Shown here: positions 19,744-28,514 of the stretch, piece by piece
Layout: each line of letters begins with the position of its first letter
Position numbering within the stretch: position 1 is the stretch's first letter
IMG/VR virus record: IMGVR_UViG_3300032006_000062
Span: 1 to 28,629 of that record
Source of the DNA: a virus
Direction: 5' to 3' (one strand)
DNA length: 28,629 nucleotides
Made by a program: the position numbers and the translations under genes
The notes under the pieces: model-generated
What the model was told of the DNA's origin: nothing
What the model saw: the letters and a program-made list of their open reading frames with translations, nothing else
Database searches by the model: none

Positions 19744-20571
19744 CTATACCGATTCGTCTATAACGACTTCCCATATACCAGCAGTATCGACAGCGATCGA
19801 TCCCATTGACATATAAGAGGTTACAAGGTTACTAACTTTTTCTGGAATGTAGTTTACTTCCGTTCTAACATCCGATCCTGTAGCAGTACCAATAGCTGAT
19901 TTGTGGTAAGCAAAACATTTTCTATCATTAGTTGAGATAGGTAATGCAGAGTGCATAAAGAATGTAAAGCCTAGCCAGTTTTTAGCTGTGACACCACTTG
20001 GGAAAGGTAAACCGCCAGCGCCAATGTAGTCTGTGTTAACAAACTCATCGATACCTAGTAGGTCAGCCCATCCCTCTGGAGATACAATAAAGTATCTGTT
20101 TCCATCGTCAGGGATGTCAGCTTCGTTCATGGCTACAAAAGTAGATAATACTTTAGCTTTTGTAAGACCAGCTGAACCAGCTGCAATAGTTGAACCGTTA
20201 CCAGCGTCAAGAGCAGCAATAATAAGGTCATCAGTCTTTCTTCCTAATGCGTTTGCAGCATTAGTAGCGACTACTTGTCTTTCATCAATGTTTGTCTTGA
20301 GTAGGTCTAGTGTATCAATGTAGTCAGCTGCATAGTAATCAGACAATGTGACATCTACATTAGTATGTACGAGGTCCATGCTTGACACTTCTGCATGTCT
20401 TGACTTAGTGACTGCCTCACCTTTGCCGACTTTTTGGAATCGAGCTGTTGAGCCAGTTACATTGTTCACTTGGCGAGTTGTGTTTCTGAGTTTAGAACCA
20501 GCTCTTTGATAAGCAAGGTGGACTTCACTCTCGAACTGCGTAATAAACGCTTGATCTATAGTTAATGCCAT
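19744..20571 (-). CDS. Major capsid protein (275 aa)
   Basis: The gene lies between scaffold/gp13-like genes and tail tubular genes. It has a strong AAAGGAGAG ribosome-binding site. The protein has an N-terminal helical arm (FITQFESEVHLAYQRAGSKL), then ATARFQKVGKG-type beta sequence, a helix with TNIDERQVVATNAANALGRK (a spine-helix-like element of HK97-fold coat proteins), and a C-terminal beta region. Length is at the short end for podoviral coat proteins. Base composition is less AT-biased than its neighbours, as expected for a highly expressed gene. Confidence 0.9.
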   Translation of the reverse strand: MALTIDQAFITQFESEVHLAYQRAGSKLRNTTRQVNNVTGSTARFQKVGKGEAVTKSRHAEVSSMDLVHTNVDVTLSDYYAADYIDTLDLLKTNIDERQVVATNAANALGRKTDDLIIAALDAGNGSTIAAGSAGLTKAKVLSTFVAMNEADIPDDGNRYFIVSPEGWADLLGIDEFVNTDYIGAGGLPFPSGVTAKNWLGFTFFMHSALPISTNDRKCFAYHKSAIGTATGSDVRTEVNYIPEKVSNLVTSYMSMGSIAVDTAGIWEVVIDESV

Positions 20572-26141: not shown

Positions 26142-26504
26142 CTAGTCCAAGTCTATACTTATCTTCACATCACCAGCAAGAACGTTGATTGCTTTGTCTG
26201 GTGGTTTAAATCCAGCTCTATCTAATATATCCTTAGAAGCTTCTAACTGAACATACTCTGACTTAGCTGAATCACTTAGACTTATGATCTTACCTAATGC
26301 CTGTACTGCGGATATAGAAAACTGCTCACTTGTTAATCGAATCAGCTCTTGCTGTATATGGGGTAACTTAAGGAGTTGACTACCTTGAACTGATGCTGTC
26401 TTTTCGCTATATCCTGCCATCTTAGCTGATTCAGTAGCGTTTCCACCAGTACTTATAAAGTTAAGGACAAAATTCTGTTGTTTACTTGTTAATGCAGTTT
26501 TCAT
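26142..26504 (-). CDS. terS: Small terminase subunit (120 aa), Terminase_2 family
   Basis: The N-terminal sequence LTSKQQNFVLNFISTGGNAT, continuing ESAKMAGYSEKTASVQGSQL and LKLPHIQQEL, is the helix-turn-helix signature of the Terminase_2 family, which binds the packaging site. A helical oligomerisation region follows, and the C-terminus is short and acidic (KISIDLD). The ATG has AGAGG close upstream, and a consensus sigma-70 promoter ends only a few bases before, so the mRNA leader would be about 10 nt. Confidence 0.92.
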   Translation of the reverse strand: MKTALTSKQQNFVLNFISTGGNATESAKMAGYSEKTASVQGSQLLKLPHIQQELIRLTSEQFSISAVQALGKIISLSDSAKSEYVQLEASKDILDRAGFKPPDKAINVLAGDVKISIDLD

Positions 26505-26520
26505 TTATACCTCTATATAG

Positions 26521-26550
26521 ATTATACACAACTGATTCGTTTTGTGTCAA
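26521..26550 (-). promoter_or_regulatory. Consensus sigma-70 promoter for the late (structural) block
   Basis: Read on the minus strand: TTGACA at 26550-26545, an 18-base spacer, and TATAAT at 26526-26521. Both hexamers are perfect. The expected start site is about 26513-26515, leaving a leader of roughly 10 nt with AGAGG near its 5' end before the small terminase ATG. This implies host RNA polymerase can transcribe the terminase and probably the structural genes. Confidence 0.8.
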
Positions 26551-26564
26551 TACAGTTATACACA
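26522..26564 (+). repeat. Two direct TTATACACA 9-mers (DnaA-box-like)
   Basis: TTATACACA occurs at 26522-26530 and 26556-26564, 34 bases apart in the same orientation. It agrees with the bacterial DnaA-box consensus TTATNCACA (identical to the E. coli oriC R2 box). The first copy overlaps the -10 element of the late promoter. They may bind host DnaA for replication or promoter control, or be chance in AT-rich DNA. Confidence 0.4.
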
Positions 26565-26577
26565 TACATTCAATTAA

Positions 26578-26593
26578 ATCGGTGGACACCGAT
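26578..26593. promoter_or_regulatory. Operator-like dyad ATCGGTG-GA-CACCGAT
   Basis: Two perfect 7-base arms with a 2-base centre. The loop is too short for an RNA hairpin, so a dimeric repressor/activator site on DNA is more likely. It lies 28 bases upstream of the late promoter -35 element. A second, wider inverted repeat (ATACAAT 26592-26598, ATTGTAT 26622-26628) follows immediately. Confidence 0.45.
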
Positions 26594-26607
26594 ACAATAT
26601 AGAGTAA

Positions 26608-26775
26608 ATGATGTTATCGACATTGTATAGTAGTATTTTTATATGCGAAGTTGTACCCAACTTCTATCAATACATAAAAATGCTTTCTGTCGACACAATT
26701 TACACATCTCTCATCAATCTATACCCTACTTTCCCACAGACACCTCTGTGGGAAGATATTATTTGTATTATGTGA
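26608..26775 (+). CDS. Doubtful short ORF (55 codons) in the intergenic region
   Basis: An open frame starting ATGATG and ending TGA encodes a hydrophobic, Tyr/Ile-rich peptide (MMLSTLYSSIFICEVVPNFY onwards). Only a weak GAG precedes the start. Two perfect hairpins (26647-26664 and 26731-26754) lie within it, which is unusual for a coding sequence and suggests that the RNA structure, not the peptide, may be what is conserved. I list it so it can be tested, not as a likely gene. Confidence 0.15.
   Translation: MMLSTLYSSIFICEVVPNFYQYIKMLSVDTIYTSLINLYPTFPQTPLWEDIICIM
26632..26684 (+). ncRNA. Two-tier stem-loop in the intergenic region
   Basis: The inner hairpin is GAAGTTG-TACC-CAACTTC (26647-26664). 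The outer arms, AGTATTTTTAT (26632-26642) and ATAAAAATGCT (26674-26684), pair over 11 bp with one U-G wobble when read on the plus strand. Internal loops are 4 and 9 bases. A regulatory RNA element or a DNA cruciform are both possible. Confidence 0.35.
26730..26755 (+). ncRNA. Strong perfect hairpin TTCCCACAGA-CACC-TCTGTGGGAA
   Basis: A 10-bp perfect stem (26731-26740 with 26745-26754) plus a U-G pair at its base on the plus strand, with a 4-base CACC loop. It is not followed by a U-run on either strand, so it is not a standard terminator. The loop and 3' side read ACCUCU, similar to an anti-Shine-Dalgarno sequence. Confidence 0.4.
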
Positions 26776-26801
26776 TGTCCTTTTCGAGATAAAGTCGCCC
26801 A

Positions 26802-26878
26802 AAAAACATTACATGGATTGTTGTTTTTTAGAAGTATCTAAAAAACATCTTTGCTCTGACGCATCCATGTAATTTTTT
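26802..26878 (+). ncRNA. Nested helix with a 3' U-tract: candidate structured RNA or attenuator
   Basis: The outer helix pairs ATTACATGGAT (26808-26818) with ATCCATGTAAT (26863-26873), 11 bp perfect. It can be extended by five A-U pairs past a bulged C (26802-26806 with 26874-26878). Inside is a second hairpin, TGTTTTTTAGA-AGTA-TCTAAAAAACA (26822-26847), 11 bp perfect. The 3' arm ends in six T residues, so on the plus strand it also resembles a long-loop intrinsic terminator. Confidence 0.45.
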
Positions 26879-26980
26879 CGATATGGCTGAAACGAAAAGA
26901 ACAGTCGGACTCAACATACCATAATTTTATTTCTTTATGGCCTCTGGCTATGCACTCAGAAATAAGAATTCTGGAGTTTC

Positions 26981-27006
26981 GTAGAAGCCAAGTTGTTGGC
27001 TTCTAT
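26981..27006 (+). ncRNA. Strong hairpin TAGAAGCCAA-GTTG-TTGGCTTCTA
   Basis: A 10-bp perfect stem (26982-26991 with 26996-27005), extended by a G-U pair (26981/27006) on the plus strand, with a 4-base loop. No U-run follows. It lies 9 bases before the long helix at 27015-27104, so the two could stack in one RNA. Confidence 0.42.
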
Positions 27007-27014
27007 TCCTTGCC

Positions 27015-27104
27015 AATAGACATTGAAAATAAATCTATTCTACAATCCCACCTATAGAGCGGTGTGATTATAGAGTCTGTTTAGATTTATATTAAATGTC
27101 TATT
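27015..27104 (+). ncRNA. Long-range 23-bp helix enclosing a second stem: candidate structured RNA
   Basis: Arms 27015-27037 and 27082-27104 are complementary over 23 positions with only two internal mismatches. They enclose a second stem, AATCCCACC (27044-27052) with GGTGTGATT (27061-27069), eight pairs of nine, with an 8-base loop TATAGAGC. The 90-base fold is much longer than chance hairpins in the rest of the window. It could be an RNA regulatory element in the leader of the rightward gene, an RNase III substrate, or a DNA site such as an origin. Confidence 0.5.
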
Positions 27105-27124
27105 TCACACATAATAAAAATAAT

Positions 27125-27142
27125 ATCTATGGGAGGATAGAT
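27125..27142 (+). other. Small hairpin ATCTAT-GGGAGG-ATAGAT
   Basis: A 6-bp stem with a GGGAGG loop that looks like a Shine-Dalgarno sequence but has no start codon nearby. A second small hairpin, GTCTTT-AGAC-AAAGAC, lies at 27176-27191. Both are in the leader of the 326-aa gene and could be chance at this stem length. Confidence 0.25.
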
Positions 27143-27240
27143 TTAGAGAGAATAGAAGAAGAAAAAACATATTCAGTCTTTAGACAAAGACATCTTTAAA
27201 TCATTTATTAACATTATTCAATAACACAAAGGAGAAAAAA

Positions 27241-28221
27241 ATGAATAACGAAAATAGAACTAACGACGATATGGTAAAAACAATAATAACTCAGATTGAC
27301 TCAGGAAGCTTTATTAATCCTGAGGAAACGACCATAAGGGGAGTCAAGAATGATGACCTTGAAATGATGGTTAGAGAATCACATATTGTTGCTGGCTACT
27401 TAGATGAATATCTGGAACAGATTAATTGGCAAAAAGAACAAGGTCATTTAACTGTAATAGAACATCACAAAGCAACAAGCTTCCTAACTCAGTCATTTTC
27501 CAGAGATACCAGAGATGATGTCGCTGAAGCATACAAGAATGAAGTCAACAGATTGACTAAACATTATTGGAATAGCGGTTCTGGAAAATGGGATAAATTC
27601 AAGGATGAAAAGACTCATCAATATGCTTTGGTAAATGTGCATCCTAATAACTACACCATTAAAAGAAACAAGAATGGAAGCAAGTCTGTTAAATGGAAGC
27701 CAGGAGGCAAAGCATATAAAGAAATCCCAAGCTTTAACACTATAAAGCTGGACGCTTATGTTGACCTAGCTGTAGAAATCGCAGAAAAGAATCAAGACGA
27801 AGCACTTAGACATCTTGAGGACGTTGCGTTAACACAGGGAATTGGTGGAACACATGCTACGGAGTGGGCTTTAGATTTATACAATAGATTTAAGGAATCT
27901 GCTACGACCATTGATACCTTTAGTGATAACAGAGGCGGTGATAAATACAGCGAATGGACAGACACAGAAAGGGAATACGCAGATTTGATGTTCCAATCTT
28001 TCGGTCTTAAAACAAACGAAGAAATCTTTAAGGAACTTAATCCTTACAGATTAAGAAAGTCATTCCAAAGAATCACATCTTTCATGGCTTTATATCAGCT
28101 TCTTCTAGGTTCTGAAACTTTACAGAATGAAAACTATAGAGGTTCACACGACCTAGCTGATGCAGTTTGTTGGAAGAAAGAAAGATATGTTCCTTCTGGA
28201 CAAAGAGCGTCTGCACTTTAA
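27241..28221 (+). CDS. Unknown 326-aa protein, first rightward gene
   Basis: ATG is preceded by AAAGGAG at good spacing. The protein is soluble and charged, rich in Asp, Asn, Lys and Trp/Tyr. Visible pieces: an acidic N-terminus (MNNENRTNDDMVKTIITQID), a helical region near 55-100, a basic part around 135-160 (TIKRNKNGSKSVKWKPGGKA) that could contact nucleic acid, and a C-terminal helical part (FMALYQLLLGSETLQNENYR). No signal peptide or membrane helix is present. I recognise no family. As the first gene after the control region and opposite to the structural block it is probably expressed early. Confidence 0.85.
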   Translation: MNNENRTNDDMVKTIITQIDSGSFINPEETTIRGVKNDDLEMMVRESHIVAGYLDEYLEQINWQKEQGHLTVIEHHKATSFLTQSFSRDTRDDVAEAYKNEVNRLTKHYWNSGSGKWDKFKDEKTHQYALVNVHPNNYTIKRNKNGSKSVKWKPGGKAYKEIPSFNTIKLDAYVDLAVEIAEKNQDEALRHLEDVALTQGIGGTHATEWALDLYNRFKESATTIDTFSDNRGGDKYSEWTDTEREYADLMFQSFGLKTNEEIFKELNPYRLRKSFQRITSFMALYQLLLGSETLQNENYRGSHDLADAVCWKKERYVPSGQRASAL

Positions 28222-28232
28222 GACTTCCCCAC

Positions 28233-28258
28233 GAGGGCTGAGCATCAGCTTAGCCCTC
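28233..28258 (+). terminator. GC-rich hairpin after the 326-aa gene
   Basis: GAGGGCTGAGC and GCTTAGCCCTC pair over 11 bp (one G-U on the plus strand) around an ATCA loop. It starts 11 bases after the stop. There is no U-run, so it may be an mRNA 3'-end stabiliser or RNase III site rather than an intrinsic terminator. Confidence 0.5.
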
Positions 28259-28277
28259 ACATCATAGGAGAATAATC

Positions 28278-28391
28278 ATGGTTTACTTAGACTTACTTAT
28301 CTTTATATTAGTAATCAGCTCTGCTGTAGGGTTATTACTTTTATTAATACAATTATTCTATTACTCATTCACAAAGCGATGGCTTAAGTAA
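28278..28391 (+). CDS. 37-aa single-pass membrane peptide
   Basis: ATG is preceded by AGGAG at 7 bases. The product is MVYLDLLIFILVISSAVGLL followed by LLLIQLFYYSFTKRWLK: one long hydrophobic helix from about residue 4 to 29 and a basic tail (TKRWLK), which predicts an N-out, C-in inner-membrane peptide. It sits between two strong hairpins as its own small unit. Such small membrane peptides are frequent among early phage genes, sometimes affecting host membrane functions or superinfection; here the function is unknown. Confidence 0.7.
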   Translation: MVYLDLLIFILVISSAVGLLLLLIQLFYYSFTKRWLK

Positions 28392-28399
28392 TAGTAAGA

Positions 28400-28453
28400 C
28401 CTAACCAGGAGTAGCGAAAAAGCTACTCTTGGTTAGGAATAAAATTTTTTTTT
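28400..28453 (+). terminator. Intrinsic-terminator-like hairpin with T-tract
   Basis: A 16-bp stem (28400-28415 with 28422-28437, one G-U on the plus strand) around a GAAAAA loop, followed after AATAAAA by nine T residues (28445-28453). The 7-base gap before the T-tract is longer than in classical terminators, so efficiency may be reduced. It ends the unit holding the 326-aa and 37-aa genes. Confidence 0.7.
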
Positions 28454-28463
28454 AATTGATGAG

Positions 28464-28469
28464 GTGCGT
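28464..28469 (+). promoter_or_regulatory. GTGCGT motif upstream of the last partial gene
   Basis: GTGCGTGAG on the plus strand, 45 bases before the start at 28515 and directly after the terminator. It is a shorter, less certain match to the minus-strand GTGCGTTGC element, but lies at a comparable distance from a start codon. Confidence 0.25.
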
Positions 28470-28514
28470 GAGTATAAGGGATTGTGCTGAAACATTTTAG
28501 TAAAGGAGAAACTA

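Follow-up and report, generated by a model that had tools for sequence, protein, structure and literature searches.

What does a viral genome encode in some 600 bases that lie between its late and early genes and fold strongly but hold no conserved reading frame? The question is raised by the structured region at 26578-27191 of a 28,629-base virus record, the whole of which was analysed and is called the window below. The region is flanked by leftward late genes, the first of which encodes the terminase small subunit (TerS, 26142-26504), and by a gene that runs rightward and encodes a 326-aa protein. The best explanation, to which we give a probability of roughly one half, is a large structured non-coding RNA encoded here, which would be free-standing and act in the early-to-late switch of gene expression.

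Folding strength and architecture of the region

The folding of the region lies outside the range of dinucleotide-shuffled sequences on both strands, so that the refuting outcome named by a first-pass annotation of this DNA, an energy within the shuffled range, did not occur. The plus strand gives -179.8 against -118.5 for the shuffles (z -9.0) and the minus strand -194.9 against -125.1 (z -11.1), with 0/20 shuffles as low in either case. When the entire window was scanned in 160-nt pieces, the mean z was -4.05 in the region vs -0.44 elsewhere, and the top four fold scores all fell within it. The annotation had also found no convincing gene here, and this holds: the longest ORF (55 aa, 26608-26775, plus strand) is frame-shifted in the homologue L002 and divergent in its second half in L003. 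Small ORFs were rejected as the region's explanation, as no reading frame is conserved among the homologues.

Strong folding is seen at other places of the window as well. Past the 326-aa gene, 28201-28480 holds two hairpins, probably terminators, the latter of which leads into a T run (CCTAACCAGGAGTAGC...GCTACTCTTGGTTAGG..ATTTTTTTTT). A locally strong plus-strand fold (z -4.5) also lies at 20041-20200 within the capsid gene, antisense to that gene.

Relatives of the region occur in three other IMG/VR contigs, two of them complete (3300009593_000063, labelled L001/L002, and 3300020478_001330, labelled L003) and one (3300020451_000538, labelled L121) keeping just the half that adjoins the 326-aa gene. 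The complete homologues are 84-85% identical to the window over about 740 nt. The comparative set thus holds only four sequences, three of them closely related, and the evidence drawn from it is good but not exhaustive. Three motif scans of IMG/VR for further homologues returned just the known contigs and chance matches, a covariance model of arm A (see below) recovered the four known copies and nothing further from 89 sources, and blastn of phage records gave zero matches. The matches from a motif scan of bacterial genomes were taken as chance, a judgement made without case-by-case inspection.

All five stems of at least 10 bp listed by the annotation were recovered (I10, 26632-26642/26674-26684; I11, 26731-26740/26745-26754; I3+I7, 26803-26878; I14, 26982-26991/26996-27005; I1, 27015-27037/27082-27104), together with its two smaller ones at 26578-26593 and 27176-27191. 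The list lacked a long-range helix of about 20 bp (P2) and a basal one (P1), by which the local stems become arms of one multibranch domain of about 445 nt (26707-27151) with four arms, A to D. The parts are as follows, given in the favoured minus sense.

26578-27151, minus (favoured): the entire putative structured RNA of about 570 bases, with its core at 26707-27151 followed by arm E and hairpin F toward TerS; it rests on the z of -11.1, the homologues and RNAalifold
27137-27151 (5' strand) and 26707-26726 (3' strand), minus: basal helix P1, with identical pairing in the folds of the window, L002 and L003
27108-27128, minus: closing helix P2, 5' strand, AGATATTATTTTTATTATGTG on the minus strand, complementary to 26754-26774 at 20/21 positions
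26754-26774, minus: closing helix P2, 3' strand, CACATAATACAAATAATATCT on the minus strand
27015-27104, minus: arm A, a hairpin in three parts whose 8-nt loop, GCTCTATA, is invariant
26904-27013, minus: arm B, made up of two hairpins, one of them perfect and of 10 bp (26982-27005), and seen in all four homologues
26776-26903, minus: arm C, a long interrupted hairpin whose fold is common to the window, L002 and L003; the L121 sequence differs
26732-26753, minus: arm D, a 9-bp hairpin, replaced in L002 and L003 by an unrelated longer hairpin
26603-26703, minus: arm E, a long hairpin outside the P1-P2 domain, whose fold is common to three sequences, with indels confined to the apical part
26578-26593, minus: hairpin F, ATCGGT-GTCC-ACCGAT followed by TTTAATT, invariant
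27176-27191, strand unassigned: hairpin GTCTTT-GTCT-AAAGAC, invariant in four sequences

P1 and P2 together enclose arms A, B and C, and hairpin D sits between P2 and P1 on the opposite side, followed by arm E and hairpin F. Independent folds of the full homologues L002 and L003 give the same architecture as the window. P1 differs among them by a compensatory C-G/U-A pair and a U-G/C-G change, and P2 is a pairing of 21 nt that is 95% complementary, with halves 333 nt apart.

Selection on the fold and the question of strand

One argument for the fold comes from P2, both sides of which have been replaced in the relatives: L002 and L003 have ATAGAAGTTG..TTAAAAAT / ATTTTTAA..CAACTTCTAT where the window has AGATATTATTTTTATTATGTG / CACATAATACAAATAATATCT. 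The helix was assessed by duplex energies because MAFFT misaligns this stretch. Each half binds its own partner at -19.9 (window) or -18.8 kcal/mol (L002, L003), an energy that 0/5000 shuffles reach in either case, and when the halves are exchanged between the window and L002 the duplexes fall to -4.6 and -5.2 kcal/mol. Arm A tells the same in another way. In its four aligned sequences 96% of the cells are paired, four pairs have changed on both sides, and the loop GCTCTATA is constant although its closing stem varies. The covariation sought by the annotation was thus found in this arm, with a score of 0.183 vs 0.076 for shuffled alignments and at most 0.061 for slid structures (n = 4 sequences). 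The replaced yet paired P2, the covariation of arm A and the lack of a conserved ORF together show that selection acts on the fold of the region, and such a fold would most simply act at the RNA level.

The contrary reading, that there is no selected structure and that chance or recent inverted duplications account for the folding of an AT-rich spacer or a decaying mobile element, is largely refuted by the same data. It can draw on the small number of sequences, just four, and on the swapping of whole arms among relatives in the manner of unconstrained insertions: arm C differs in L121, and arm D forms one hairpin in the window and another in its relatives. Against it are the z of -9 and -11, the joint replacement of two P2 halves 333 nt apart that still pair, and compensatory changes in arm A that surround an invariant loop. 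Hence this reading is very improbable.

The annotation had further stated that several stem extensions use G-U pairs on the plus-strand reading only. Over the region as a whole this was not borne out: both the energies and the changed pairs point rather to the minus strand. RNAalifold of three sequences gives -179.1 for the minus strand vs -157.5 for the plus strand. Likewise, arm C folds 6-8 kcal/mol better on the minus strand (-42.4, -37.8 and -42.1 kcal/mol in the window, L002 and L003) than on the plus strand (-34.1, -31.7 and -34.8), and in arm A 3/3 of the wobble-varying pairs are G-U on the minus strand. Among the hand-listed stems about 8 wobble sites favour the minus strand vs 1-2 the plus strand, a census that was unblinded to the minus fold and is non-significant alone; the single-mismatch counts are 6 to 3. 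Arm E adds one conserved plus-strand wobble, and most pairs are Watson-Crick and hence foldable on either strand. On the sequence evidence the minus strand, i.e. the terminase sense, is favoured as the RNA strand by about two to one. A counterweight is that the slot element of phages of the same lineage, described below, folds better on the other strand.

Neighbouring genes and competing roles

The region is surrounded by the following features.

26142-26504, minus: terminase small subunit gene (TerS, Terminase_2; PF03592, E 1.4e-16; phrog_51), which leads the leftward late block
26521-26550, minus: TerS promoter, TTGACA-18-TATAAT, 12/12, between the structured region and TerS
26522-26530 and 26556-26564, plus: two DnaA-box-like sites, TTATACACA, within 43 bp, the former overlapping the -10 element
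27241-28221, plus: gene for the 326-aa protein, with relatives just in L001/L120, L003/L122 and L121

On the minus strand, hairpin F is followed downstream by the 12/12 TerS promoter. The RNA would be transcribed leftward, in the TerS sense, and would have its 3' end at or near hairpin F, directly before this separate promoter of consensus strength, an arrangement that suggests a free-standing RNA rather than a leader of TerS. Hairpin F is a possible weak terminator of the minus-strand RNA by its sequence, and it fails the terminator rule of the prediction tool; upstream of the domain no conserved minus-strand promoter was recognised, the chief weakness of this reading. The alternative that the region is a minus-strand leader of the terminase (late) operon, read through into TerS, would fit the favoured strand, which is that of TerS, and the distance of 74 bp between the end of the region and the TerS start. 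It is nonetheless improbable, since the sigma-70 type promoter and an ordinary ribosome-binding site of TerS intervene and the promoter is kept (in L002, L003 and L004-L009) even where the upstream sequences of such relatives are unrelated.

As to the way in which a free-standing RNA might work, it may be a folded scaffold that acts via its conserved apical loops and in this manner affects the switch between early and late genes, a proposal made with low confidence. One hint is a possible pairing of the invariant arm A loop, GCUCUAUA, with UAUAGAG at the ribosome-binding site of TerS. This complementarity spans 7 nt, recurs at two other places of the RNA and is interrupted by a single base in L003.

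The region could instead serve the rightward 326-aa gene as a long, structured 5' leader, with a start near 26583-26612 on the plus strand and a fold that controls translation of, or elongation into, the early genes. Every contig with a homologue of the region carries this gene, and the gene was found only in genomes with the window-type RNA, so that the two always co-occur. A weak 9/12 promoter-like site at 26583 (plus strand) is identical in all three full homologues, and element T, which occupies the slot in related phages, folds 6 to 16 kcal/mol better in the early-gene sense. However, the energies and wobble changes of the window family prefer the opposite strand, promoter-like sites in the region are at chance level (7 found, 5.3 expected), and there is no clear pairing that hides the ribosome-binding site of the gene, 26500-26513/27232-27245 being just 79% complementary. 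A leader of the 326-aa gene is rather unlikely.

The 326-aa protein itself had no match in Pfam, PHROG, PDB sequences or phage records, and no similarity to the 204-227 aa protein at the equivalent place in relatives. Its AlphaFold model (pLDDT 43.5) is too low in confidence for use. A downstream early gene (L001:5474-6451; L003:566-1549, minus) encodes a protein of 325-327 aa that has a HEAGH motif of the zincin type and looks ArdC-like by eye. It is kept across the lineage, whereas the 326-aa gene is not.

A third possibility is an element that acts as DNA, such as a replication origin or packaging site with single-stranded or extruded hairpins, or a precursor of a primer like ColE1 RNA II. 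The two TTATACACA sites within 43 bp, the presence of TGTGGATAA at the corresponding place before the TerS promoter in L007-L009, the minimum of cumulative GC skew that adjoins the region where the genes diverge, and the near-equal folding of both strands are all in its favour. On the other side, one TTATACACA overlaps the -10 element, so that promoter constraint may account for that site, and GC skew tracks gene direction regardless. Moreover, a plain array of hairpins needs no long-range multibranch domain, and a symmetric DNA structure predicts zero strand bias in wobble pairs. This explanation is unlikely, slightly more so than a leader of the 326-aa gene. ColE1 RNA II is a primer RNA of a plasmid origin, likewise about 550 nt long, multi-hairpin and next to an origin-like site; the likeness lies in position and size only and does not extend to an antisense unit like RNA I, an RNase H site or origin activity. 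A packaging RNA of the phi29 type was set aside, an ordinary pair of small and large terminase being present.

Hence, among the roles offered by the annotation, that of a structured RNA stands on P2 and arm A, the plus-strand leader is weakened by the minus-strand bias, replication retains the DnaA-like sites and the skew minimum, and partition is unsupported.

Known RNAs and the same slot in related phages

Searches against known RNA families placed the region in none of them. Rfam searches at gathering score (window) and up to E 5 (26480-27260) gave chance-level matches far below the gathering scores, and the covariance models of GOLLD and ROOL matched neither the window nor 26480-27260. Similarly, the region had no match to the cis-regulatory families of Rfam (riboswitches and others) or to its models of group I/II introns and known ribozymes, and ARAGORN found zero tRNA or tmRNA genes in the 28,629-base window. 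The region does have a conserved secondary structure with compensatory changes and no conserved ORF, as expected of large structured non-coding RNAs of phages in general.

GOLLD, found in phages and prophages, is a non-coding RNA of very large size and ornate build, whose arms are unequally conserved and whose expression rises at lysis, and ROOL is a phage or prophage RNA with many stems; the function of both is unknown (PMC12286853). The window RNA is likewise large, ornate and phage-borne with arms of unequal conservation, but it is shorter than GOLLD and lies beside a terminase gene, with neither an Rfam match nor tRNA genes in the window. It shares with ROOL many stems and a comparable order of size, and differs from it in the lack of an Rfam match and of a tRNA island in the window. 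The OLE RNA, of about 600 nt and with an intricate fold (PMC9723947), is similar in size and intricacy; it differs in being bacterial (Gram-positive) with known protein partners, while the window RNA has no Rfam match. The best reading of these sequence comparisons is that the window RNA would be a new, undescribed RNA of the large structured phage kind, outside GOLLD and ROOL. Such RNAs (GOLLD, ROOL) rank among the least understood, and the window RNA is missing from Rfam.

The window phage is a marine SAR11-type phage of a lineage that includes Pelagibacter phage EXVC031P Hodr, its nearest isolate in the phage collection (TerL 67% identical). Phages whose TerS is 50-60% identical have, in the same slot, 740-1450 nt of non-coding, strongly folding sequence (400-nt pieces, z down to -13), which shares no sequence with the window RNA save for the promoter area. 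Several of these slots contain element T, in which AGCCGTGTTG, a variable hairpin and CTGCCCGCACC(C/T)A(G/A)ACA lie within a covarying helix.

L004:3471-3600, L005:1169-1298, L007:3511-3639, L010:3544-3669 and eight others: copies of element T, 12 distinct ones being aligned

Its covariation score is 0.317 vs 0.116 for shuffled alignments, its fold on the strand opposite to that of TerS is better by 6-16 kcal/mol, and it had no Rfam match in the loci tested. Element T (L004-L011, L133-L140) resembles the window RNA in its place between TerS and the early genes, its covarying hairpins and the lack of an Rfam match, and differs in sharing no sequence or motif with it and in folding best on the opposite strand. 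In EXVC031P Hodr the slot (L141:12037-12373) is one giant hairpin, in which a short hairpin with a cUUCGg loop is flanked by CAACACGG and GCGGGCAG, complements of the two conserved strands of element T, their order being swapped.

A bolder and tentative proposal would make the window RNA the first of a new class of large phage RNAs to be described, and the slot a site where this SAR11-phage lineage maintains unrelated, fast-changing large RNAs for a common purpose, probably via RNA-only or RNA-protein assemblies in infection. If true, phages with very small genomes devote up to about 1.4 kb of non-coding structured sequence to the divide between early and late genes, which would need an explanation. 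Laboratory tests of transcripts and function are within reach, since EXVC031P Hodr, whose slot carries a giant hairpin, infects a SAR11 strain that is in culture.

Some minor observations were made on these slots. The EXVC031P Hodr palindrome has a ribosome-binding site (CCAAAGGAGG) at each end, one per divergent direction. The outer helix of element T (L007:3480-3680, L005:1140-1340) pairs CTCCCTT with AAGGGAG, and the latter is probably the Shine-Dalgarno sequence for a small ORF ahead of TerS. An element of about 200 nt with a multibranch fold, GATTCGATGGT.ACCAAACAAA ... GGCTTGTTTGGTG ... AACGAATC, is present at about 800-1110 of L005, 2470-2790 of L006 and 2840-3110 of L007, and its outermost helix takes in both the ribosome-binding site of the early gene and the first codons, like an inverted copy of the gene start. 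In a more distant phage, the sequence upstream of TerS (L045:3201-3600) folds at -231 vs -127 for shuffled sequences (z -12).
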